The notes beneath the pieces were generated by a model. The model ran no database searches. It saw only the letters and a list, made by a program, of their open reading frames with translations, and was not told where the DNA came from. DNA of 37,449 nt, taken from NCBI GenBank assembly GCA_021604105.1, contig BQIW01000042.1:1-37449 (forward strand), written 5' to 3'. Position numbers and translations under genes: made by a program. This document shows, piece after piece, positions 21,189-36,903 of the stretch (position 1 is its first letter; each line of letters opens with the position of its first letter). This DNA is from Nitrospirales bacterium. GTDB taxonomy: Bacteria; Nitrospirota; Nitrospiria; Nitrospirales; UBA8639.

Positions 21189-22583
21189 ATGCAAAGGGAT
21201 CAAGTGTTCGTAAATGAGCGCATGAGGCAAGCAATGCCAAACGACCTGTCTGAGGGATTTTTGGCATCAAACCTCTTTCGATTCTTTGAAAACGAGGGAA
21301 TTTGTTATGTCCTGGTTGGGGATTCTCGGGAGTATCCAGCAAAAATACTGAGTGATGTGGATTTAGTTATTCAGCCGGAGTGTGTCAGTAACCTTGTTCC
21401 CTGTCTGATGAAGTTTTGTGACCTTTATAATTTAAAGATTGTTCAAATTCTTCAGCATGAGCAATCGGCGTGGTTTTTTGTTTGTACTTGGACGGGTAAT
21501 GATGGCAAACACCATGTTTTTTATCCCGATGTTTGCACCGATTATATTCGCCGGGGAAGGCGATTTTTAAGTGCTCGCGGCTTGTTGTCCGGGCGTATTC
21601 GAAAACACATTGACTCAGATGCTCAGCAATGTTCGTTTTTTGTGCCAGCCCCGGAGCAGGCTTTTATCTATTACCTGTTGAAAAAAATTGATAAAGGCCA
21701 CCTGGCTCAAAGCCATCAATCCTATCTGAGTGGAGAATGGAAGAAAGCCCGGAAGGAATCAAAAAAGCAATTGCAAGAATTTTGGAGTGAGCCGGAAGTA
21801 GAAATGCTTTGCGAAGCAGCAGAATCTAATTCGTGGAATGAGGTTTGTGATGCATTGCCTAGGCTACGGAAGGCACTTCGCGGGAATCTCGCATTTTCAT
21901 GGAAATATTTTGCACGAGATGTGCAAAGAAAAATTCAAAGAATTATGAAGCCAACTGGAATTCATGTTGTCCTCCTTGGGCCAGATGGGTCCGGGAAAAG
22001 TACCATTCTGGAGCATATTGAGGAATCACTGGCACCTGCCTTTCGTAGGACGAAGCGGTATCATCTTAGACCATTTTTGGGAAGGCGCAAACTTACTAGA
22101 GCGCCGGAGTTGAATCCGCATGGTAAGCGGGTGAGGGGATTGTTGACTTCCATGATCAAGCTGGGTGTCTGGTGGATTGATTTTACCATTGGATATTTTG
22201 CCAGTGTATTTCCTTGTCTGGTTCGTTCGACGCTTGTTTTATTTGATAGATACTATTTTGATTTACCCATTGATCCTAAACGATATCGATATGGTGGTCC
22301 TCTTTGGTTAGCGAAGCTTTGTGGGAAATTGATACCTCGTCCGGACCTCGTGATATTGTTGGATGTTCCGGCAGAGGAATTGTTTTTGCGAAAAGCCGAA
22401 GTTGCGATAGAGGAAAGCCATCGACAACGACAAGCGTACCGTGAATTTGTCGGCACCTTGCCAAATGGACATATCATTGACAACTCGGAACGATTAGAGG
22501 AAACAATTCAGAAGGTAGAGGCTGTAGTCCTCAATTATATGGAGATCCGTGCCATCTCCAGCCTTGGTCATGTTAAACAATGA
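21189..22583 (+). CDS. Nucleotidyltransferase-like/thymidylate-kinase-like fusion protein
   Basis: The start is uncertain; ATG at 21189 (7 bases after the previous stop) gives 464 residues, and an ATG at 21234 has a nearer GAGG. The N-terminal half resembles a nucleotidyltransferase fold (YVLVGDSREYP followed by LSDVDLVI, a D-x-D pair). The C-terminal half is a P-loop kinase: Walker A GPDGSGKST at 264-272, a DRYYFD motif as in dTMP kinases, LVILLDVPAEELFLRKAE, and a lid-like HRQRQAYREF. Such fusions are found in polysaccharide loci, but their substrate is not established to my knowledge. It is directly followed by an APH-fold kinase gene. A role in phosphorylating a glycan intermediate or nucleotide sugar is only inference. 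Confidence 0.75.
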   Translation: MQRDQVFVNERMRQAMPNDLSEGFLASNLFRFFENEGICYVLVGDSREYPAKILSDVDLVIQPECVSNLVPCLMKFCDLYNLKIVQILQHEQSAWFFVCTWTGNDGKHHVFYPDVCTDYIRRGRRFLSARGLLSGRIRKHIDSDAQQCSFFVPAPEQAFIYYLLKKIDKGHLAQSHQSYLSGEWKKARKESKKQLQEFWSEPEVEMLCEAAESNSWNEVCDALPRLRKALRGNLAFSWKYFARDVQRKIQRIMKPTGIHVVLLGPDGSGKSTILEHIEESLAPAFRRTKRYHLRPFLGRRKLTRAPELNPHGKRVRGLLTSMIKLGVWWIDFTIGYFASVFPCLVRSTLVLFDRYYFDLPIDPKRYRYGGPLWLAKLCGKLIPRPDLVILLDVPAEELFLRKAEVAIEESHRQRQAYREFVGTLPNGHIIDNSERLEETIQKVEAVVLNYMEIRAISSLGHVKQ

Positions 22584-22584
22584 G

Positions 22585-23607
22585 ATGAGGGCTCTGAGTC
22601 TCTTTTCATCAGATTCGCAGGTTAGGGCCCTTCCTACTTCCAGAAACCCCCGTTTACTACTTACTGGGTCGACGGTAAAACGTCGCTGGCAGGAGAGTGC
22701 TTTATACCCTGCTCATAGAAGAGTTGCCAAGTGGTATCGATTTTTCCTGCGCTTAAAAGTGGCAACAGGATTGGGTTTAATTGCCCCCGTAATAAATGAT
22801 CACTCAAAGATCAACGACTTCATAAAGGACATTTTTCCCGATGTTGATTCCGCGGCACTCCTCATTGGTTCAGCAGGACCAAATCAGAAAAATATTATTC
22901 AATTATGGAGTCGGGAAAGAGGGGTCGTTGGGTACATAAAATATGCCGAGACACTCATTGCTCGATCCAGACTAGAAAACGAGTACAAGATGTTGGGGTG
23001 TATTCCTAAAGGAATCGGTCCGGACATACTGAAGTACACCTCATTTAACGATGGGAAAGCCCTGGTCCTCAGTCCGATATTCGGACGAGCTATGCCAGTA
23101 AATTTGCCTCCCCCGTACTGGATTCACGAATTTCTGAATGGTCTTCAGATCTCACCGTGCATGGGAATCAACGAACACCCAGGCGTAAGATTTTTTCAGG
23201 AAAAATACGGCAGTGTGGTCCTGCCCTGGCTCGAGTCTCTTTCTCAACGAAAATGGCCCGTTGTGGTATATCATGGTGATTTTGCACCATGGAACGTACT
23301 GCATTGGTCCCATGGAAGTGTCGCTGCGATAGATTGGGAGTATGGATTGTCAGAATCCCTTCCGCACCTGGATTTAATCCATTATTTTTTACAAGTCGGG
23401 CGCTTGATCCGGTTTTGGGCTCCACGCCAGGCAAGGGTATTTGTCATTAACTACCTGCTGAGACACTGTTCATTGGGTCTTAACGAGATAGAAGGGCTAG
23501 TGAGCTTGTCAGCTTATCATGCATATCGCGAGGCAATTGTGGACGGTCATGTGGAAAATTCAAATCGTGTTCTTTGGTGGAGGTCCGTATGGGAGTGCGA
23601 GAGGTGA
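22585..23607 (+). CDS. APH/choline-kinase-fold phosphotransferase
   Basis: The product has about 340 residues; GTG at 22549 and ATG at 22570 are alternative starts and none has a strong ribosome site. The kinase fold is shown by YIKYAET (nucleotide-binding Lys), RSRLENEYKML (helix-C Glu), the Brenner motif HGDFAPWN (His230, Asp232) and the metal-binding AIDWEYG (Asp250). All catalytic residues are present, so it is probably active. The family phosphorylates hydroxyls of aminoglycosides, choline or sugars. In this setting a sugar, lipid-linked unit or ethanolamine/choline acceptor is conceivable. It begins one base after the fused kinase stop and overlaps the following glycosyltransferase, so the three are tightly coupled. 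Confidence 0.75.
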   Translation: MRALSLFSSDSQVRALPTSRNPRLLLTGSTVKRRWQESALYPAHRRVAKWYRFFLRLKVATGLGLIAPVINDHSKINDFIKDIFPDVDSAALLIGSAGPNQKNIIQLWSRERGVVGYIKYAETLIARSRLENEYKMLGCIPKGIGPDILKYTSFNDGKALVLSPIFGRAMPVNLPPPYWIHEFLNGLQISPCMGINEHPGVRFFQEKYGSVVLPWLESLSQRKWPVVVYHGDFAPWNVLHWSHGSVAAIDWEYGLSESLPHLDLIHYFLQVGRLIRFWAPRQARVFVINYLLRHCSLGLNEIEGLVSLSAYHAYREAIVDGHVENSNRVLWWRSVWECER

Positions 23608-24842
23608 AACGACTAAAAGTCTTGATCTCAGCCTATGCTTGTGAACCGGAAAAAGGTTCGGAATCTGGTGTTGGGTGGAACGTGGCTCTGCAAATGGCAA
23701 AGTATCATGACGTCTGGGTAATCACCCGCAGCAATAACCGATCGAGCATTGAAGCAGCCTTAAAACGTTGTGACCAGCCTAAGCCACATTTCCTCTACTA
23801 CGATCTCCCCAAGTGGATCCGGTTCTGGAAGAAGGGGGGGAGAGGCGTCAGAGCCTACTATTATATGTGGCAAATGGGAATATTGATATTGATTCGAAGT
23901 CTGCACCGGACCATGAACTTCGAACTGATCCATCACGTGACGTTCGTGAAGTTTTGGACGCCGAGTTTTCTATCCTTTCTCCCAATTCCATTCTTGTGGG
24001 GTCCTATTGGTGGTGGAGACACGACCCCCGTAGTGCTGCGTACGGAGTTGGACTTTAAGAGTAAAATGTACGAGACGGGTCGACATCTGGCTTTGTGGAT
24101 AGGAGAGCATGATCCGTTTGTTTGGCGAACGGCAGCAAGAAGTCGGATGGGAATCGCCACAACAAAGGAAACGGCATGCCGCTTAAGAAAGCTGGGTGTA
24201 TCTAATATAAAACTCTATGGTGAGGCCGGGCTAGAAATGAGTGCGATTGCTCAACTTACGCAATCCTCGAAGCGGTCGGATTCTTCGTTTAGGTTTGTGA
24301 CAATTGGAAGATTGTTAGGGTTTAAAGGGGTTTTTTTGGCGCTACGGGCATTTGCACAAGCCAATCTGCTGCATTGTGAATATTGGATTATCGGTGATGG
24401 TCCGGACAGAAGGAGATTGGAGAAACTCGTGGAATCTCTTGGTATTGCAGAGCGAGTAAAATTCTTTGGGGAAATTCCCAGGTCTAAAGTGTTGAGTAAA
24501 CTCGGCGAATGCAACGTGCTTGTACACCCCAGTTTTCATGAATCAGGTGGCTGGGTCTGTTTGGAGGCCATGGCCGCTGCACGACCCGTAATTTGCCTGG
24601 ATCATAGTGGACCTGCCACGCAAGTGACGGACAAAACCGGAATACTCATTTCTGTAAATTCTACCGAACAGGTGTTACGGGATATGGGAGAGGCAATGCA
24701 AAAGTTAGCTTATACCCCTTTTCTTTGCGAACAGATGGGCAGAGCTGGGCGGGAAAGAGTGTTGCAAGATTATAGCTGGGATTCCAAGGTTGATGTTCTC
24801 AATGAATTCTATCATGAAGTGGCACTCCAGGGATCGCCGTAA
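23589..24842 (+). CDS. Glycosyltransferase family 4
   Basis: The 417-residue enzyme takes its start at ATG 23589 because GGAGG lies 5 bases upstream; a GTG at 23604 overlaps the kinase stop by 4 bases and is an alternative. It opens with a KVLISAYACEPEKGSESGVGWN stretch (the ACEP..GSE.GVGWN signature of a GT4 subgroup), followed by an acceptor-side HHVTFVKFW and PFLWGPIGGGD. The donor half shows TIGRLLGFKGV, IGDGPDRRRLE and HPSFHESGGWVCLEAMAAARPVI, with the conserved E-x7-E spacing. Substrates are unknown. It is separated by 145 bases without a gene from the next glycosyltransferase. Confidence 0.9.
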   Translation: MGVREVKRLKVLISAYACEPEKGSESGVGWNVALQMAKYHDVWVITRSNNRSSIEAALKRCDQPKPHFLYYDLPKWIRFWKKGGRGVRAYYYMWQMGILILIRSLHRTMNFELIHHVTFVKFWTPSFLSFLPIPFLWGPIGGGDTTPVVLRTELDFKSKMYETGRHLALWIGEHDPFVWRTAARSRMGIATTKETACRLRKLGVSNIKLYGEAGLEMSAIAQLTQSSKRSDSSFRFVTIGRLLGFKGVFLALRAFAQANLLHCEYWIIGDGPDRRRLEKLVESLGIAERVKFFGEIPRSKVLSKLGECNVLVHPSFHESGGWVCLEAMAAARPVICLDHSGPATQVTDKTGILISVNSTEQVLRDMGEAMQKLAYTPFLCEQMGRAGRERVLQDYSWDSKVDVLNEFYHEVALQGSP

Positions 24843-24987: not shown

Positions 24988-26190
24988 ATGGAAAATAAGC
25001 TTAGGGTTTTGATTGTCCACAATTTTTATCAAGAGCCCGGTGGGGAAGACGAAGTATTTGCCGCCGAAGGCCGACTCCTCGAAGCGAATGGCCACAAGGT
25101 TATTCGGTATACCTTACATAACGACTCTATACAAGAAAACTCTATGGTTGACCTTGCAAAGGCATTAATTTGGAATAACAAGGTGTATCATGCTCTTCGT
25201 AGACTTATTCAACGAGAACGCCCGCAAGTCGCCCATTTTCATAATGTCTTCCCATTAATTTCCCCTTCAGCCTTTTTTGCAAGTCGGGCGGAGAAGGTCC
25301 CCGTCATATTAACGCTGCACAACTATCGGCTTCTGTGTTCCAACTCACTTTTTTATAGAGATGGAGAAGTATGTGAGGACTGTCTTGGAAGTATTTTCCC
25401 AATTTCCGGAGTTATTCATCGGTGCTACAGAGGGAGTCGAGTAGAAAGTGCTGGTGTAGCGGCCATGCTCAGTATCCATCGAATGATGGGGAGCTGGAAA
25501 TACAAGGTCAATACATTTGTTGCGCTCACAGATTTTGCCAGGCAAAAATTTATTGAGGGAGGACTTCCAGAAAAGAAGATTGTAGTTAAACCGAACTTTG
25601 TTGAGCCTGACCCGGGTTTTGGTAGGGAGAAGGTACAAGATTACGCGTTATTCGTTGGTCGGCTTTCCTCAGAGAAGGGACTTAGTACGCTTTTAAGGGC
25701 CTGGTCAGCGTTGCATGAGCGTATACCACTCAGGATTATTGGCGATGGGCCGCTTGCCCACCAGGTTCAGGATGCCTCTAGGACTATAACGGGAGTTGAA
25801 TGGTTAGGAAGACTGAAAAAGACCGAGGTCTTATTGGCCATGAAGCAAGCGATGTTTTTGGTCTTTCCATCCGTTTGGTACGAAGGACTTCCGATGACAA
25901 TCATTGAAGCGTTTGCCGTCGGATGTCCCGTCGTAGGTAGTGCCATTGGGGGAGTGAAAGACTTGATTGTTTCGGGGAAAACGGGCCTTCATTTTCGTCC
26001 TGGTGATGCAGAGGATCTGGTGGAGCAAGTGACATGGGTGCTGGCTCACCGAAGCCAAGTTTTGGAGATGCGGAGTCAGGCTAGGTTAGAGTATGAAACC
26101 CGTTATTCGAATGTTAAAAACTATAAAGATTTAATGGATATATACGACCAAGCTAGGAGTAGGGAAACGGCAACGGTTTTTGCTCAATAG
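24988..26190 (+). CDS. Glycosyltransferase family 4 with Cys-rich insertion
   Basis: The 400-residue GT-B protein opens with VLIVHNFYQEPGGEDEVF, the acceptor glycine loop. A short segment near residues 112-150 has LLCSNSLFYRDGEVCEDCLG and a later HRCYRGSR; the spaced cysteines (CEDC with a third in HRC) are found in a GT4 subgroup and might bind a metal. The donor half has GRLSSEKGLSTLLRAW, IIGDGPLAHQV and PSVWYEGLPMTIIEAFAVGCPVV. Ribosome site is weak. The following polymerase gene begins 50 bases downstream. Its job is probably the last or a branching transfer in repeat-unit assembly. Confidence 0.9.
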   Translation: MENKLRVLIVHNFYQEPGGEDEVFAAEGRLLEANGHKVIRYTLHNDSIQENSMVDLAKALIWNNKVYHALRRLIQRERPQVAHFHNVFPLISPSAFFASRAEKVPVILTLHNYRLLCSNSLFYRDGEVCEDCLGSIFPISGVIHRCYRGSRVESAGVAAMLSIHRMMGSWKYKVNTFVALTDFARQKFIEGGLPEKKIVVKPNFVEPDPGFGREKVQDYALFVGRLSSEKGLSTLLRAWSALHERIPLRIIGDGPLAHQVQDASRTITGVEWLGRLKKTEVLLAMKQAMFLVFPSVWYEGLPMTIIEAFAVGCPVVGSAIGGVKDLIVSGKTGLHFRPGDAEDLVEQVTWVLAHRSQVLEMRSQARLEYETRYSNVKNYKDLMDIYDQARSRETATVFAQ

Positions 26191-26240: not shown

Positions 26241-27581
26241 ATGAACGTCATTGTAGAATTACTTGGTATGAGAAGCTGGCTGTTTGGGCTGATTGCGCTA
26301 TCCACAGTCCTTTATGGAAGAATTTTGACAGAGTTGGGCGGGCCGGCGGTTGTGAAGTTTTTTCATTTTGCCTTAGTGGCCATTTTCGCCGTTCTTCTTC
26401 TCCCGTTTTTGAGCAATTCTATTTCTTGGTCTCTTATGTATGGTCTCTTATTGCTTTTGTGGGTCATGATTTTAAGTGCAGTCATCAACAATGCTGGAAT
26501 AATAAATATTTTACTCGATTTTCTGGTACTTTCCGAGCCATTTCTTCTTCTGGTCCTAATGATCAACCAACCGATGTCCAAATCACAGATTCAGACCTTT
26601 CGTTGGCTGCTTGTGGTTTTTATTTGTATACACGTTGGATTATCATATGCGCAGGCTCTCGCAGGCGGCGGAACTGATGACGTAAAAGGCGTTTTTCTTG
26701 AACAAGGCGCTGGACATCATGTTGCCGGAGCCGTTGCCCTGACCGCAGCAGTTTACTTTTTTACGGCTCTTGAGAGTTTTTCTCTACCTGTACGCGCGAT
26801 GATAAGTCTTATCATCGCGAGTGTGGTCATTCTTTCGGATTCAAAACAGGTCATTGCTGTTTTCCTGTTGGGACTTGGTTGTTTGCTGTGCACGAAACTT
26901 GGAGATTTTCGGAAGTTCTTCTTATACGTCACATTGTTTATGATTTCAGCGGCGGTGCTTTTATTTTCCGCCTTTACTATTTTTCCGGCATTAACGACCT
27001 GGGCGGATCTGAACTTGATCTTAAAAGGGTTAACCGTAAAGTTTGGGATTTTATCGCTTATTTTTACTCACTATGACTCTACCCTGAATTGGATTTTTGG
27101 GTTAGGGCCAGGTCATACCGTTGGCAAGTTGGCATTCATGTTGCCCCAGTATGATGAACAGCTTCGTTCTCTTAGTGTGTCTTTTTCATCTGTTACTCAA
27201 CACGCATGGAACTATCAACAAGGAAATTATCTGTCGCATTCGGTTACAGGGTCCAGCATGTGGTCTCCTTTTTTCTTCTGGGCAGGGGTATGGGGTGATC
27301 TTGGGATTCTGGGGATTGTATCCTACGGATTTCTTTGGGTCATTGTGATTTTGCGCATCTGCACAAATGATCTTGCTCGTTTTCTCGCCTTTACCGTCCT
27401 CATATTTGGTATCGTCTTTTCCTGGTTAGAAGAACCTGGCTATATGCTATTTGTGGTGACCATTATAGGACTGAGTTGGCAGGAGCAACAGGCTAGATTG
27501 CCCATACAAAGTTTTGAGATGGAGAGAGAAAGTAGAAATTGCCGTGTTAATAACTGTACGAATGCAATAATGAGGAATTGA
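26241..27581 (+). CDS. Wzy/WaaL-like O-antigen polymerase or ligase family protein
   Basis: The 446-residue membrane protein has about 11 hydrophobic helices. There is a large polar loop at about residues 275-350 (LGPGHTVGKLAF ... YLSHSVTGSSMWSP) before the last helices. The loop placement, an Arg in SLPVRAMIS and the GLGPGH motif fit Wzy or WaaL proteins, which are highly variable, so polymerase rather than ligase is inferred from the Wzx/Wzz context. It would polymerise lipid-linked repeats in the periplasm. It is the last + strand gene of the locus, and its 3' end faces the convergent beta-helix gene across the hairpin at 27677-27717. Confidence 0.82.
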   Translation: MNVIVELLGMRSWLFGLIALSTVLYGRILTELGGPAVVKFFHFALVAIFAVLLLPFLSNSISWSLMYGLLLLLWVMILSAVINNAGIINILLDFLVLSEPFLLLVLMINQPMSKSQIQTFRWLLVVFICIHVGLSYAQALAGGGTDDVKGVFLEQGAGHHVAGAVALTAAVYFFTALESFSLPVRAMISLIIASVVILSDSKQVIAVFLLGLGCLLCTKLGDFRKFFLYVTLFMISAAVLLFSAFTIFPALTTWADLNLILKGLTVKFGILSLIFTHYDSTLNWIFGLGPGHTVGKLAFMLPQYDEQLRSLSVSFSSVTQHAWNYQQGNYLSHSVTGSSMWSPFFFWAGVWGDLGILGIVSYGFLWVIVILRICTNDLARFLAFTVLIFGIVFSWLEEPGYMLFVVTIIGLSWQEQQARLPIQSFEMERESRNCRVNNCTNAIMRN

Positions 27582-27821: not shown

Positions 27822-29492
27822 TTATTTTGTTAAAGTTGGAGGGGGAGCAGGAGGATAGATACAATCCATTGCCAGGTTTGTCGCAAGCGAGTCTGGATGT
27901 ATGAAAAAGGAATTTTGATCTTGATTTGCAGTTGATTGCCATTCAGGGAAACGAATACTTTTCCCTCCTTCGCCTAGTCGAAAAGCTCCAGGAATGGACG
28001 GCTTCATCCATATATTCCCATCGGAAAATAAGCCATTCAGGAAAAAGGAATGGGGGTCTGTTATCAATAAGGCATGATCACCGGAGATGATATTATTCGT
28101 TAATCGCCATCGTTCCGTTTTGTGCTCTGTTCTTTCACCCGTCTCCCAATTGTTCACCATTCGAGTGAATGGAGCCTGTACAATAATTTGATAGCCCCGG
28201 TTGGCATAAATTCGGCTTCCGGTTAATGTAAGATCTGGTGTTTGCACCGTTCTAAATCCCCATTGATTGTTCTGGTAAATTTTGGCGTTGGTGATTGTAA
28301 TTCGTTCACTGGCTTCGACGAATAATCCATACGTTCGGTTTCCGCACCAACGACCGTCTTCCATGCGAATATTTCGATTATCATAGTCTAACCAAAAACC
28401 CGTGGTGTGATTTCCGCGGGCTATGTGTCGTCTGAAGATAGCATCGTGGATTTGTACGGCCTTCATGCCAGCCACTCCCCAATGTACGAAATCTCCCTTT
28501 ACACCTCTCCAATTGTTACGTAACGTTTTGTCGTCTTCAGATAGGAGGTTTTTGATCTTAGCGAGCTGATATCCTGAGGCCCCATTGTTCCTGGCTTCAT
28601 TTCGTTTGCTTGTCAAGTTTTGGATGTTGTGCAAAAAATAACCCATGCCATTATTCCAGGAAAAGAGAAGGTCTTCTAAGGTGACATTGTTTCCATCCGT
28701 GATGACTAGGGCGCTACCGAGAAAATCAGAAGCCGCATGTTGAAAGGTTAAGCCTTTGAGTACAAGATTTGTTTTTCCTTTGATAAGTACCGGACGGCTA
28801 CGAATGGCAACTTCAATTAAGCTTTCAGAAGGGGCTACTCCTTCAGGTAGAGCGATGAAAATTTGACTGGTGCTTTCTGTTGCAAAAAATGTCCCAGCTA
28901 CTAATTCGGTTGACGATAAAACCTGTTTTAATGGAATTCCATTGACGAAAACCATCTCTTTCCTTCTCACAATATGACTGACGTTGACCCTGCCCTTCCA
29001 ACTCTCAGGAAGTGATTTGACCCCCCACTTATAGGGCCAGCTATGAACGAAGATATTGGGGGCTTTTGTAGATTTCCAGTTTCGAAAAATATCTGCCCCA
29101 GAAATAATGGCTTTGCCAATTTCGGTCGCCTCAAAGATAATTGGAGGATCTGAATCTTGTTGGTTGACGATTATTTGGAATTTTTCTCGGTAGACTCCAG
29201 GGGCCACAAGAATTTTTGTTCCAAGTCCAAGCGCACGATTTTCAATGGCAATTGTTGTGGCCTTCCCCAAGGTTTTGAGTGGCAAATTCGCGGTTCCCGG
29301 ATTAGAATCAGAAGCGGCTAGGTGTTTATTGTTGACGTGGATGGTTCGAGCTACCTCTATGAGTCCTAAGGGGAGCGGCGCCCCATAGGAACTAGCTTGC
29401 AATACATTTGGTAAGCCTAAGACTATTAATATTGAATACAACTTCACATAGTTTACAGCGTTCACCTTGAGATGTACTAAAACCTTTTTCAT
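27822..29492 (-). CDS. Secreted right-handed beta-helix protein (paralogue A)
   Basis: The 556-residue protein starts at 29492 with AAAGGAGCG six bases upstream. The N-terminus is basic, then hydrophobic (LYSILIVLGLPNVLQA), a likely signal peptide. The mature part opens with the ASDSNPGT..LPLKTLGKA motif (DUF1565-like start of pectate-lyase-fold proteins) and PGVYREK, and continues with beta-helix coils containing GFWLDYDN, GLFVEAS and IYQNN. Possible roles are binding, epimerising or cleaving the secreted polysaccharide; no catalytic triad can be identified. It is a close relative of the protein at 30031-31671 with shared REMVFVNGI, NWETGER and GNH words. It is the last gene of the - strand arm. 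Confidence 0.85.
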   Translation of the reverse strand: MKKVLVHLKVNAVNYVKLYSILIVLGLPNVLQASSYGAPLPLGLIEVARTIHVNNKHLAASDSNPGTANLPLKTLGKATTIAIENRALGLGTKILVAPGVYREKFQIIVNQQDSDPPIIFEATEIGKAIISGADIFRNWKSTKAPNIFVHSWPYKWGVKSLPESWKGRVNVSHIVRRKEMVFVNGIPLKQVLSSTELVAGTFFATESTSQIFIALPEGVAPSESLIEVAIRSRPVLIKGKTNLVLKGLTFQHAASDFLGSALVITDGNNVTLEDLLFSWNNGMGYFLHNIQNLTSKRNEARNNGASGYQLAKIKNLLSEDDKTLRNNWRGVKGDFVHWGVAGMKAVQIHDAIFRRHIARGNHTTGFWLDYDNRNIRMEDGRWCGNRTYGLFVEASERITITNAKIYQNNQWGFRTVQTPDLTLTGSRIYANRGYQIIVQAPFTRMVNNWETGERTEHKTERWRLTNNIISGDHALLITDPHSFFLNGLFSDGNIWMKPSIPGAFRLGEGGKSIRFPEWQSTANQDQNSFFIHPDSLATNLAMDCIYPPAPPPTLTK

Positions 29493-30030: not shown

Positions 30031-31671
30031 TCAATTTAGACCAAGATAGGTGCAATCATCTAAAAGATCTTGCCGTGGCTTTACGGGGTAGGCAAAGGTT
30101 GATGTCTGATCTTGGTTCATGGTGGTTTGCCATTCGCTAAATGTCAAGCGGTCGGCGGAAGCTTGAAATGGTTTGGTGTTAGATGCGCTAGACCAAAAAT
30201 TCCCGCTGGACCTTAACCCTAGTCCCAAGGGATTCTTGAAACTGCTTTGGACTAAAAGGCCATCGCCAACAATAACATTGTTCTCCAGCGTCCATTTTTC
30301 TGCGCCAATATTATGCCTTTCTCCTGTTTCCCAGTCGTTTACCCCTCTGGTCTTCTGTCCTTGGACTCGAATCTGGGGACCCCGATTGTGGTAAATCTGG
30401 CTTTCTTCTAGATTGATCTGACTTGAATTCACAATCCTAATTCCCCACTCGTGGTTTTGGTAAATTTTCATGTTTGTTATTGTTAGAGGGCCTTGGGTGG
30501 CCTCAAGGAATAAGCCATGTTTGAGATTACCACACGATATCCCCTCTTCTAATCGAATGTTCTTGTTATCGTAGTCTAGCCAAAAACCAGCCGCGTGATT
30601 CCCTTGGGCACGATGTCGGCGAAATACGGCGTCGTGTATACCCATAATTTTCGCTCCAGCGACTGCCCAATAGACGAAATTTCCCATTGCTCCTCTCCAG
30701 TTATTAAATGAGGTTTCATCATCTTCGGAAAGATAGTTTTTTACTTTCCAGGCGGTGTGTCCGGGGCCCCCATTGTATGTCGAGATATTTCTTCGGGTTG
30801 TTACATTTTGTACATTGTGAAACTGATACCCTCCCCAACTATTCCAAGCGAATTCGCAATCTTCAAGGTGAACGTTTTGTGCATTCGTAATGCCGAGTGC
30901 GTGGCCAACAAGGCCAGATGCGTCATGCTGAAACCTTAGCCCTTTTAGAACTATATTGGCTTTTCCCTTAATGTTAAGGAGTCCGCTTCGAACGGCAACT
31001 TCAACCTCACTCCGTTTGATGCCAATTTCATCTGGTAAAAAAATCATTATTTCGGAATTTTCTTCTGAAACAAAAAAATTGCCAGGCTTCATTTCAGAGT
31101 GCAAATCTACTTGATTGAACTTGATCCCATTCACAAAAACCATTTCTCGACGTCGGACAATTGGTTGCAGAATTGTTTTGCCTTCCCATCCAGGAGGATA
31201 TGGCCTGACTCCCCATTTGAATGGCCATTGATGTGTGTAGATTTTTTGGTGTTTTGTCTCCTTCCAGTTTCCCCAGATTTCTGATCCAGAAATAATGGTC
31301 TTCCCTTTTTCAAGAGCTTCAAATGTAATGGTGGGATCCAGTTTTCTGTTGCTGAATTCCATATGAATTTTCTCTCGATAAATGCCAGGAAAAATAAGGA
31401 TTTTTGAACTGAATCCTCTTTTATGATTTCCTAGCGCGAGAGTTGTTGCCATTCCTATGGTCTTGAGAGGCAATATCTGGGTTCCTGGATTGGAGTCTGA
31501 TGCGTGAGGGGAAGTGTTGTGGACATAAATAACTCTATCTGATTGCGTCGATGGGAGTGTGTCTGGTGCTCCAATGGCTGCAAGGACTCGTACTGGAATA
31601 AGGAACACACAAAAAAATCCCATGACGTAAAAAAAAGGCAATGTAAAGTTTGGTCTGGTTCTGTTTGTCAT
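30031..31671 (-). CDS. Secreted right-handed beta-helix protein (paralogue B)
   Basis: The 546-residue protein is likely exported: a hydrophobic leader FFYVMGFFCVFLIPVRVLA precedes the probable cleavage. The mature part opens with HASDSNPGTQILPLKTIGMA and PGIYREK, then many short strand-turn repeats with N-rich turns, as in parallel beta-helix proteins. GFWLDYDNKNIRLEEG, HGLFLEA and NDWETGER match paralogue A, so the genes arose by duplication. No lyase or epimerase residues can be assigned. The upstream ribosome site is weak (GGAA). It is separated from the CpsD-like gene by about 330 bases, so it may have its own promoter. A carbohydrate-active or polymer-binding role is inferred from context. 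Confidence 0.85.
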   Translation of the reverse strand: MTNRTRPNFTLPFFYVMGFFCVFLIPVRVLAAIGAPDTLPSTQSDRVIYVHNTSPHASDSNPGTQILPLKTIGMATTLALGNHKRGFSSKILIFPGIYREKIHMEFSNRKLDPTITFEALEKGKTIISGSEIWGNWKETKHQKIYTHQWPFKWGVRPYPPGWEGKTILQPIVRRREMVFVNGIKFNQVDLHSEMKPGNFFVSEENSEIMIFLPDEIGIKRSEVEVAVRSGLLNIKGKANIVLKGLRFQHDASGLVGHALGITNAQNVHLEDCEFAWNSWGGYQFHNVQNVTTRRNISTYNGGPGHTAWKVKNYLSEDDETSFNNWRGAMGNFVYWAVAGAKIMGIHDAVFRRHRAQGNHAAGFWLDYDNKNIRLEEGISCGNLKHGLFLEATQGPLTITNMKIYQNHEWGIRIVNSSQINLEESQIYHNRGPQIRVQGQKTRGVNDWETGERHNIGAEKWTLENNVIVGDGLLVQSSFKNPLGLGLRSSGNFWSSASNTKPFQASADRLTFSEWQTTMNQDQTSTFAYPVKPRQDLLDDCTYLGLN

Positions 31672-34632: not shown

Positions 34633-36903
34633 CTATTCATGTGAATTAGCTTGAGACCCCTGGTTTGTCGGGGTTTTCAATTCTTTGGGGATTTTTGGAA
34701 ATGCAATGTCTTGTCCTGGAAAGATTTTCTTGGGATTCCGAATGTTGGGGTTAATCTCCAAGACACGTTGAACATAACTCGGATGATAGGATCCATAAAC
34801 AACCTTGAGCAATTTTTCTAAGGTATCGCCCTTTTGTACGGTGGCCACAGCATAGGGGACATTAGATTTGTCCTTAACTTTGATTTCATTTTTTTTGAGT
34901 TGTGTGGAAGAGTGAGCAAAGAATGTTTTTGAAGAAGGTAATTTCTTGTCTTCAACCGACACCAACGTTTTGTCAGGCTCACTCACTTTTTTGGGACCCT
35001 CGACGCTTGGTAAAGGCGGAAACACAATCTTTTGTCCCGGATACATTCTTCGCACGCTTGCAATATGACGATTATGTTTAAGAACGAATTGAACTGTCGA
35101 TGGGTTAGCCGACCCGTATACATCATGCAATAATTTTGCCAGTGTGTCGCCTTTTTTCACGATCCTGGTTACGGGTGAAAGTGAGGCACCCATCTCCGAG
35201 TTGCTTGGACTTTTCCGCATTGTCACACCTGTTTGAGCGACAGGGACCGATGGAGGGCTATTTTTGCTGGGTGGACTGATTCGTTCTTCAGCGACAATCG
35301 AGGGTTGTTCTTCATGCTCACTGGGGTTTTCAGGACTTATTCGAACCAGATTGGTCTCACTGACATTCTCAGGTAGTGTTTTTGTCTCATCCTGAGCCAC
35401 TGGCGTTCCTGCCACCATAATATTTGCCTCAGCCGTTGGAATCCCTTCTTCGTGGATCAAGAGCTCAGGAGATCCTGGTTGTGAAGATTGGATAACTTGT
35501 ATGTCTGTTTCATCCTGACCAAGCCTCGCTCCATTTTCCGGACTGTCTGCTTCAGCCTTCGCTGGAATCTCTTCCTGGGTGGAGACGTTGAAGAGTTCTT
35601 GTTGGAGGGGCAGGATTTCAGGCGATTGTGTCTCTAAAGTTGAGGATACCTCTCGGACCTCTAAAACTGGAGGTGTCTCATGCGGGGAGTTATCCTGGGG
35701 ATTTCCGGCAAGTAGGAGGTCTTCTTGATTGTCAGGAGCGATAGGTGTTTTGACATGGGGTTGAGTCGTGGTTGATTTGGAATTCGAGCTGACCAGGTTC
35801 AGTAGTTTCTCAAGGACTTCAGATACCGATTGCGTTAAGGTCGTTTGTGCTTTTTCGGTCAGGGCCTGACCTGTTTGAGGAGGGGATGGGGTATATTCCT
35901 CCACACTGAGCATGTCTTGAGCGGATGCAAGGTCTTGTTTCGGATTTTCCCTATCGTTACCTGATTGTCCGTTCCTATTTATTGAAGGTATATCCGAAAA
36001 TTTTGATTCAGTCAGAGGCAGGAGTGCGACAAGGGCAAGGACAAGAATGAGAGCCAAGCCGATCAGGGGAACTAATTTCCAGAGTGAATAGGCAGGTCGG
36101 CCGGTTAGATCCCCGATTACCTCTTTAGCAATTCTGGCTGTCACCAAAGCTTTGTTATATCCAAAAGCCGTGACCAGGGCATTATCACAGAGAATATTCA
36201 GTCGCCGGGGAATCCCTTTGGCTTCTTGCACAATTAGAGCTAAGGCCGAATTTGTAAAAATCTTTTTCCCTTCCCCCCCGGCCTTGTCCAAGCGATGCCG
36301 GATATATTCAAAACTTTCCAGCTTGGAGAGGGGCTGAATGATGGCTCGTACGGCGATGCGTTGCCGTAGCTGCCGGAGTTCATAACGATCGAGAAGGCTA
36401 TCTAATTCCGGTTGCCCTAACAGCACAATTTGAATGAGTTTATCTTTTGGGGTCTCCAAATTTGACAACATGCGCAGATGTTCTAAGGTGTCCACGGGCA
36501 TATTTTGCGCTTCGTCAATTAAGAGCACCACGGTCCGGCCTTCTTGATATTTGTCTATGAGGACAAAATGGAGTTGCTCCAACACTTCGGCATCGTCCCC
36601 GTCGATGGGGGTATGTCCCAGTTCACGCAAAAGGGTCTTGAGTAAGCTGGTAAATGACAGGTTGGGATTGAGGAGATACACCGTTTCCTGATTGGCCTGA
36701 TGGTGTTGATTCAGAAACGATCGGAGAATGGTCGTTTTTCCAAGACCAACTTGGCCGGTAACCGCAATAAATCCTTTTTTTTCCCTCATGCCATAGATCA
36801 GCGAACCCAATGCCTGCTTATGGCCTGGACTGAGATACAAAAAATCCGGATCTGGTGTGGTATTAAATGGCTTGGTCCGTAACCCGAAAAAATTAAAATA
36901 CAT
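34633..36903 (-). CDS. GspA/ExeA-like AAA ATPase with two C-terminal LysM domains
   Basis: The 756-residue protein opens with YFNFFGLRTKPFNTTPDPDF, the usual start of GspA/ExeA ATPases. Walker A is GQVGLGKTT at 50-58 and Walker B LLIDEAQN with Asp130/Glu131; an RLNILCDNALV segment marks the end of the AAA part. A hydrophobic helix at about 275-297 crosses the membrane, followed by a long acidic, Ser/Pro-rich linker (about 300-575) and two LysM domains (about 577-627 and 686-736, each with KKGDTL or QKGDTL). ExeA carries a different peptidoglycan-binding module in this place. The ATPase would be cytoplasmic and LysM periplasmic, tying energy to the cell wall. It is the first gene of the - arm; AGGAA precedes the ATG. 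Confidence 0.9.
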   Translation of the reverse strand: MYFNFFGLRTKPFNTTPDPDFLYLSPGHKQALGSLIYGMREKKGFIAVTGQVGLGKTTILRSFLNQHHQANQETVYLLNPNLSFTSLLKTLLRELGHTPIDGDDAEVLEQLHFVLIDKYQEGRTVVLLIDEAQNMPVDTLEHLRMLSNLETPKDKLIQIVLLGQPELDSLLDRYELRQLRQRIAVRAIIQPLSKLESFEYIRHRLDKAGGEGKKIFTNSALALIVQEAKGIPRRLNILCDNALVTAFGYNKALVTARIAKEVIGDLTGRPAYSLWKLVPLIGLALILVLALVALLPLTESKFSDIPSINRNGQSGNDRENPKQDLASAQDMLSVEEYTPSPPQTGQALTEKAQTTLTQSVSEVLEKLLNLVSSNSKSTTTQPHVKTPIAPDNQEDLLLAGNPQDNSPHETPPVLEVREVSSTLETQSPEILPLQQELFNVSTQEEIPAKAEADSPENGARLGQDETDIQVIQSSQPGSPELLIHEEGIPTAEANIMVAGTPVAQDETKTLPENVSETNLVRISPENPSEHEEQPSIVAEERISPPSKNSPPSVPVAQTGVTMRKSPSNSEMGASLSPVTRIVKKGDTLAKLLHDVYGSANPSTVQFVLKHNRHIASVRRMYPGQKIVFPPLPSVEGPKKVSEPDKTLVSVEDKKLPSSKTFFAHSSTQLKKNEIKVKDKSNVPYAVATVQKGDTLEKLLKVVYGSYHPSYVQRVLEINPNIRNPKKIFPGQDIAFPKIPKELKTPTNQGSQANSHE

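Follow-up and report, generated by a model that had tools for sequence, protein, structure and literature searches.

WbdD of E. coli O9a is a kinase that acts on a glycan and recruits a mannosyltransferase; it is the chain terminator of an ABC-transporter pathway and also carries a methyltransferase and a coiled coil (PMC3482155). The K. pneumoniae O7 ORF6 protein combines methyltransferase, kinase and glycosyltransferase, and its kinase phosphorylates the end of the glycan; the closest structural match of this kinase is the APH-fold AmiN, and it lies on the same polypeptide as GT2 modules (PMC11231755). Here we describe a locus within a 37,449-nucleotide stretch (hereafter the window), one contig of a Nitrospira-type Nitrospirales genome, the sequence of which points to a nucleotidyltransferase (NTase), a thymidylate kinase (TMK)-like kinase, an APH-fold kinase and a GT4 glycosyltransferase as a single functional cassette inside a Wzx/Wzy-type exopolysaccharide (EPS) cluster. 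The features of the cassette and its neighbor are as follows.

21189–22583, plus strand: gene 1, NTase/TMK-like fusion (ATG 21189, TGA 22583, 464 residues)
21249–21713, plus strand: NTase-like domain, about residues 21–175, with an Asp triad invariant in 14 homologues
21354–21356, 21360–21362 and 21528–21530, plus strand: NTase catalytic triad D56, D58 and D114
21939–22580, plus strand: TMK-like P-loop kinase domain (Pfam PF02223, 28.3 bits)
21978–22004, 22245–22250 and 22389–22400, plus strand: TMK-like Walker A GPDGSGKST, DR motif and LID-like RKxE
22585–23607, plus strand: gene 2, APH-fold kinase (ATG 22585, 340 residues)
22939–22941 and 23272–23295, plus strand: APH ATP-binding Lys, K119, and catalytic loop HGDFAPWN
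23329–23340, plus strand: APH IDWE, with metal-binding D250 and E252
23589–24842, plus strand: GT4b glycosyltransferase, third gene of the cassette (PF00534, 97 bits; motif AYACEPxKGSExGVGWN)
24988–26190, plus strand: GT4c, a second GT4 glycosyltransferase, with 34–50% identical copies in loci L050, L051, L052, L053 and L055

The cassette and WbdD share a polysaccharide-cluster kinase of the protein-kinase/APH superfamily that works with a glycosyltransferase, whereas WbdD has no NTase or TMK-like partner. A WbdD-type chain terminator was rejected as a description of the locus: a Wzx flippase is encoded there along with Wzz-type proteins, and the gene 2 product has no methyltransferase domain by Pfam scan. 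In its published description the O7 ORF6 protein resembles the cassette in fusing an APH-fold-like kinase to glycosyltransferase modules, but these are GT2 rather than GT4, the protein is a chain terminator, and it contains neither an NTase nor a TMK-like domain. With the LicA/LicC/LicD system the cassette has in common a kinase plus nucleotidyltransferase logic, and LicA is the best solved-structure match of the APH family profile; however, only the catalytic half aligns, and no LicC or LicD partner was found among the window ORFs scanned, so the locus does not qualify as LicA/LicC/LicD choline decoration. Finally, thymidylate kinases share with the gene 1 product the fold class, the Walker A and DR motifs and the basic LID residues, but the gene 1 product adds an N-terminal NTase domain and an EPS context, and lacks the dTMP motifs. 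In the open-licence literature we found no description of a TMK-like protein linked with a polysaccharide kinase cassette.

The genes around both kinases are, by their predicted products, those of a typical Wzx/Wzy-type exopolysaccharide cluster: a sugar transferase, a GDP-mannose dehydratase, a fucose-synthase-like reductase, a UDP-xylose-synthase-like protein, a WecG-type GT26, several GT4 enzymes, Wzx, and Wzz-type and tyrosine-kinase-like proteins. A 446-residue protein (26241–27581) without a Pfam or NCBIfam match is probably the Wzy polymerase, given its position and its counterpart in locus L025. Beside the cluster, on the minus strand, lie two adjoining right-handed β-helix (NosD-like) proteins (27822–29492 and 30031–31671), and β-helix ORFs also occur beside the cassette in genomes G297 (L052) and G354 (L050). 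Further on, a protein that combines an AAA ATPase with a LysM domain (34633–36903) has Wzz-type and AAA_31 proteins as neighbors, an arrangement suggestive of EPS export of the exosortase type.

The initial annotation had drawn attention to two kinase genes separated by one base, the second overlapping a glycosyltransferase gene, and had quoted two motifs from each. These details are accurate. Only base 22584 lies between genes 1 and 2, and gene 2 shares 19 bases with GT4b when the latter is read from ATG 23589; the longest GT4b ORF begins at TTG 23574, and a GGAGG ahead of ATG 23589 makes the latter the likely start. The start of gene 2 was placed at ATG 22585 because aligned relatives start at the same residue. 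GPDGSGKST and DRYYFD occupy residues 264–272 and 353–358 of the gene 1 product, and HGDFAPWN and AIDWE residues 230–237 and 248–252 of the gene 2 product.

D56, D58 and D114 are the sole invariant columns of the NTase region among 14 homologues that are 13–37% identical to the window protein, and the D56-x-D58...D114 arrangement would form the metal-binding triad expected of Pol-β-type nucleotidyltransferases. A Pfam scan of this region of the gene 1 product gave no match, while PF14907 matches it in 3 of the 14 relatives (best 1e-6); the nucleotidyltransferase label was assigned because of the invariant Asp triad together with these matches. At the hG[GS] position before the DxD the window protein has VGDS and many relatives LRNY, and the best PDB match of the region, at a weak E value of 0.039, is a nucleotidyltransferase-like protein. 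That gene 1 is a fusion, as originally proposed, is confirmed by the NTase being a separate ORF in G354.

The TMK region scores just over the PF02223 gathering score of 27 bits, and the profile of the TMK-like family matches solved thymidylate kinases at 1e-10. The Walker A residues G/D/G/K/T as well as R354, R401 and K402 are invariant in 16–17 TMK-like homologues. Assignment as a dTMP kinase was rejected: the NCBIfam model TIGR00041 reaches 24.6 bits against a cut-off of 83.25, such that only the broad Pfam family passes, and the dTMP-binding elements TREPGG and S-x-x-x-YQ are missing, the gene 1 product having YHLRPFLG and DRYYFDLPIDPKRYRY instead. The same genome encodes a housekeeping TMK (G000:C21, 175.9 bits) with TREPGGT and DRFFDSTLAYQ. 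Thus, the score far under the cut-off, the missing motifs and the normal TMK elsewhere argue that gene 1 does not encode a dTMP kinase.

The gene 2 product has the HxDxxxxN loop, DxE metal site and ATP-binding Lys of APH-fold kinases. H230, D232, N237, D250 and E252 are invariant in 15 APH homologues and the ATP-binding Lys is present in 13 of them. The window protein falls under the PF01636 gathering threshold (19.3 vs 23.2), which its relatives in L053 (37.7) and L052 (30.9) pass. The best solved-structure match of the family profile is the choline kinase LicA (4r77, 9.8e-9), in an alignment limited to profile residues 181–287; the Choline_kinase family PF01633 matches 8 of 15 members, and RIO1 matches two of the 15 weakly. 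One APH relative, in G232 (L054 1459–3024), begins with a stretch that resembles a methyltransferase (Methyltransf_8 at 25.7 bits, slightly short of its cut-off), a combination that recalls WbdD-type terminators; as this is not general among the relatives, a methyltransferase was rejected as a general cassette partner. AlphaFold models of the gene 1 and gene 2 products were poor (pLDDT 51 and 33) because the alignments are shallow. The conserved catalytic residues and dN/dS values, relative to the G015 orthologues, of 0.16 for gene 1, 0.19 for gene 2 and 0.09 for GT4b show that the cassette genes are functional and under purifying selection.

Random association across genomes, which the initial annotation had named as a counter-indication, was looked for and not seen. 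In profile searches of 396 Nitrospirota genomes, 15 had a member of the TMK family and 12 a member of the APH family, with 10 genomes having both (hypergeometric p = 8e-15, a value that assumes independent genomes, which related genomes are not); the domain fusions and the breadth of phyla count for more than this p value. Both kinases lie in a single locus in nine of the ten genomes, the exception being G350, where they are on two short contigs, and a further locus with both, in G038, was found among the relatives. Across the window genome and 59 relatives, APH adjoins NTase-TMK in every genome with a close NTase-TMK. G018, a Nitrospira genome, carries a paralogous set at 46%/44% identity, in which the two genes again adjoin; its three NTase-TMK/APH modules (contigs C95, C298 and C299) comprise two near the window version and one of about 45% identity.

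The two genomes with APH and no TMK both gave weak APH matches (46–56 bits). In 5 of the 15 TMK genomes there is no nearby APH: the TMK scores of G031, G300, G357 and G397 are weak, three of these four being short TMK-only proteins, and in G363 a contig end lies close to the TMK gene. Short TMK-only relatives of 223–246 residues (L059 7026–7706, L060 6175–6846 and L061 6624–7364), in glycosyltransferase clusters without APH, are possibly a separate subfamily.

Plasmid records were used for the survey beyond Nitrospirota. A TMK search of 72,556 such records gave eight matches (four Leisingera, and Agrobacterium, Legionella, Hymenobacter and Streptomyces), and all six matches of an independent APH search fell within these eight; in the other two, an annotated phosphotransferase adjoins TMK (Legionella) or is one gene away (Streptomyces). 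The relatives sit among flippase and glycosyltransferase genes of polysaccharide loci, and as judged from these matches the cassette is present in at least four bacterial phyla. Transposase ORFs lie beside it in G024 (L022 2973–3590 and 16121–17365) and an rve-domain (integrase-core) ORF in G297 (L052 6487–7071), consistent with horizontal transfer. No match to the cassette was found in phage records. Among viral contigs (IMG/VR) there was one NTase-TMK relative (L068 4748–6064); the part of this contig that was read contains neither a recognizable APH nor a recognizable GT4b. A defence system was rejected, PADLOC having given only weak P-loop matches.

In profile searches of the loci, GT4b accompanies the kinases in Nitrospirota, Agrobacterium, Leisingera, Streptomyces and Hymenobacter; it was also seen without kinases in G034 and G227. 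The domains are distributed over genes as follows.

Window: NTase-TMK, APH and GT4b as three genes
G024: NTase-TMK, then an APH-GT4b fusion
G354: NTase as a separate, overlapping ORF, then a TMK-APH-GT4b fusion of 1018 residues
G192: NTase-TMK, then an APH-GT4b-GH123-like fusion
Hymenobacter: an APH-NTase-TMK fusion, with GT4b two genes on

Fusion of the domains in differing combinations is strong evidence for a joint task. The C-terminal GH123-like region of the G192 fusion (L051 6636–10841) is 39% identical over 566 residues to a G024 protein, where the counterpart is a separate protein of 609 residues (L022 6737–8566); a GH123-like protein is a possible fifth component of the cassette.

Pairwise distances over eight loci with a flippase showed strong co-divergence of TMK with APH (r 0.90) and with GT4b (0.92), and of APH with GT4b (0.79), whereas Wzx of the same loci gave non-significant values of 0.12–0.31 against the cassette. 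The NTase follows less well (0.65–0.73). When the two loci nearest the window were left out, TMK-APH and TMK-GT4b remained at 0.83 and 0.89 and the NTase signal was gone. Because TMK, APH and GT4b co-diverge and Wzx does not, the cassette has been inherited as a block while the rest of the clusters was exchanged. GT4c, with r values of 0.69–0.80 over six loci, is a looser partner that often adjoins the cassette in Nitrospirota. The proposal that the kinases form a system-like, uncharacterised unit is therefore strongly upheld: the genes co-occur non-randomly in several phyla, their domains are fused, and they co-diverge. As to its extent, the two kinases do belong together, but the unit extends beyond the pair first proposed, since it includes the overlapping GT4.

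The most likely product of the cassette is a phosphate-bearing modification of the polymer. Our tentatively favored reading, held at somewhat less than even confidence, is that the cassette phosphorylates a glycan residue in a step coupled to GT4, with the NTase/TMK-like protein acting on the phosphate. In this scheme the lipid-linked repeat unit would receive a particular sugar from GT4, and before export APH would place a phosphate on a hydroxyl of this residue or of its donor. The new phosphate would next be the target of the NTase/TMK-like protein; this is the least certain step, the role given to the two domains being a guess, and the polymer would end with a phosphate, a diphosphate or a phosphodiester-linked substituent. 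Coupling of phosphorylation to glycosyl transfer seems most likely because the APH-GT4b fusion recurs, and phosphorylation or nucleotidylation of a glycan intermediate, as first suggested, would be compatible by analogy with the WbdD and O7 ORF6 precedents. These, however, belong to ABC-transporter pathways, whereas the window locus is of the Wzx/Wzy type. Also against this reading are the TMK genomes without nearby APH, the GT4b genes without kinases, and LicA, the closest solved APH relative, being a small-molecule choline kinase, which fits activation of a precursor equally.

That main rival, a possibility on the unlikely side, accounts for these data almost equally well. In it, the substrate of APH would be a free sugar or small alcohol; the NTase/TMK-like protein would turn the product into a diphosphate or a nucleotide-activated donor, which GT4 or, alternatively, the NTase domain would attach to the glycan, in the manner of LicA/LicC/LicD with other enzymes. 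Enzymes with an NMP-kinase fold normally have a phosphate group as acceptor, which would suit a second phosphorylation, and the succession of a kinase and a nucleotidyltransferase is reminiscent of known salvage routes. The LicA and PF01633 matches of the APH family point the same way, but the LicA alignment is confined to the catalytic half, LicC and LicD families are missing from the window genes scanned, and the loci have no sugar-releasing enzyme in common, the GH123-like protein occurring in two only. A common sugar pathway was rejected: GDP-fucose genes are present in several loci, though not in every one, and rhamnose genes in others, so no common donor can be named.

It is improbable that the TMK-like domain serves to regenerate the donor nucleotide locally as a nucleoside monophosphate kinase (for instance by removing UMP or CMP), with APH doing a separate job. 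The fold, the Pfam class and the fusion with GT4 in G354 would agree with this, but the dTMP-binding elements are missing, a normal TMK is encoded elsewhere, and an enzyme reserved for a small number of EPS loci would be unnecessary if its task were to recycle nucleotides. Less probable again are regulatory kinases that phosphorylate or bind cluster proteins to control polymer assembly: the APH and protein-kinase folds are related, but beyond the weak RIO1 matches no protein-kinase Pfam family matches the APH members, the fusion partner is a biosynthetic GT4, and NTase and TMK keep small-molecule catalytic residues. A chance neighborhood is hardly credible, for although polysaccharide loci are variable hot spots of gene exchange with transposase and rve-domain ORFs, the co-occurrence is non-random, the fusions take at least three different combinations, and the co-divergence does not extend to the flippase found in these loci.

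To return to phosphorylation coupled to GT4, its boldest form, that an undescribed, widespread four-activity cassette uses a lipid-linked repeat unit to build a new phospho-linked substituent, with phosphorylation and nucleotidyl or phosphodiester chemistry as successive steps, is rather doubtful; we know of no polysaccharide pathway with this logic. If the cassette does decorate the polymer with phosphate, many environmental bacteria would make phosphorylated, that is anionic and metal-binding, extracellular polymers by means of genes presently annotated 'hypothetical protein' and 'phosphotransferase'. Phosphate decoration would then be predictable from genomes via the cassette, and its natural fusions offer compact proteins for biochemistry.
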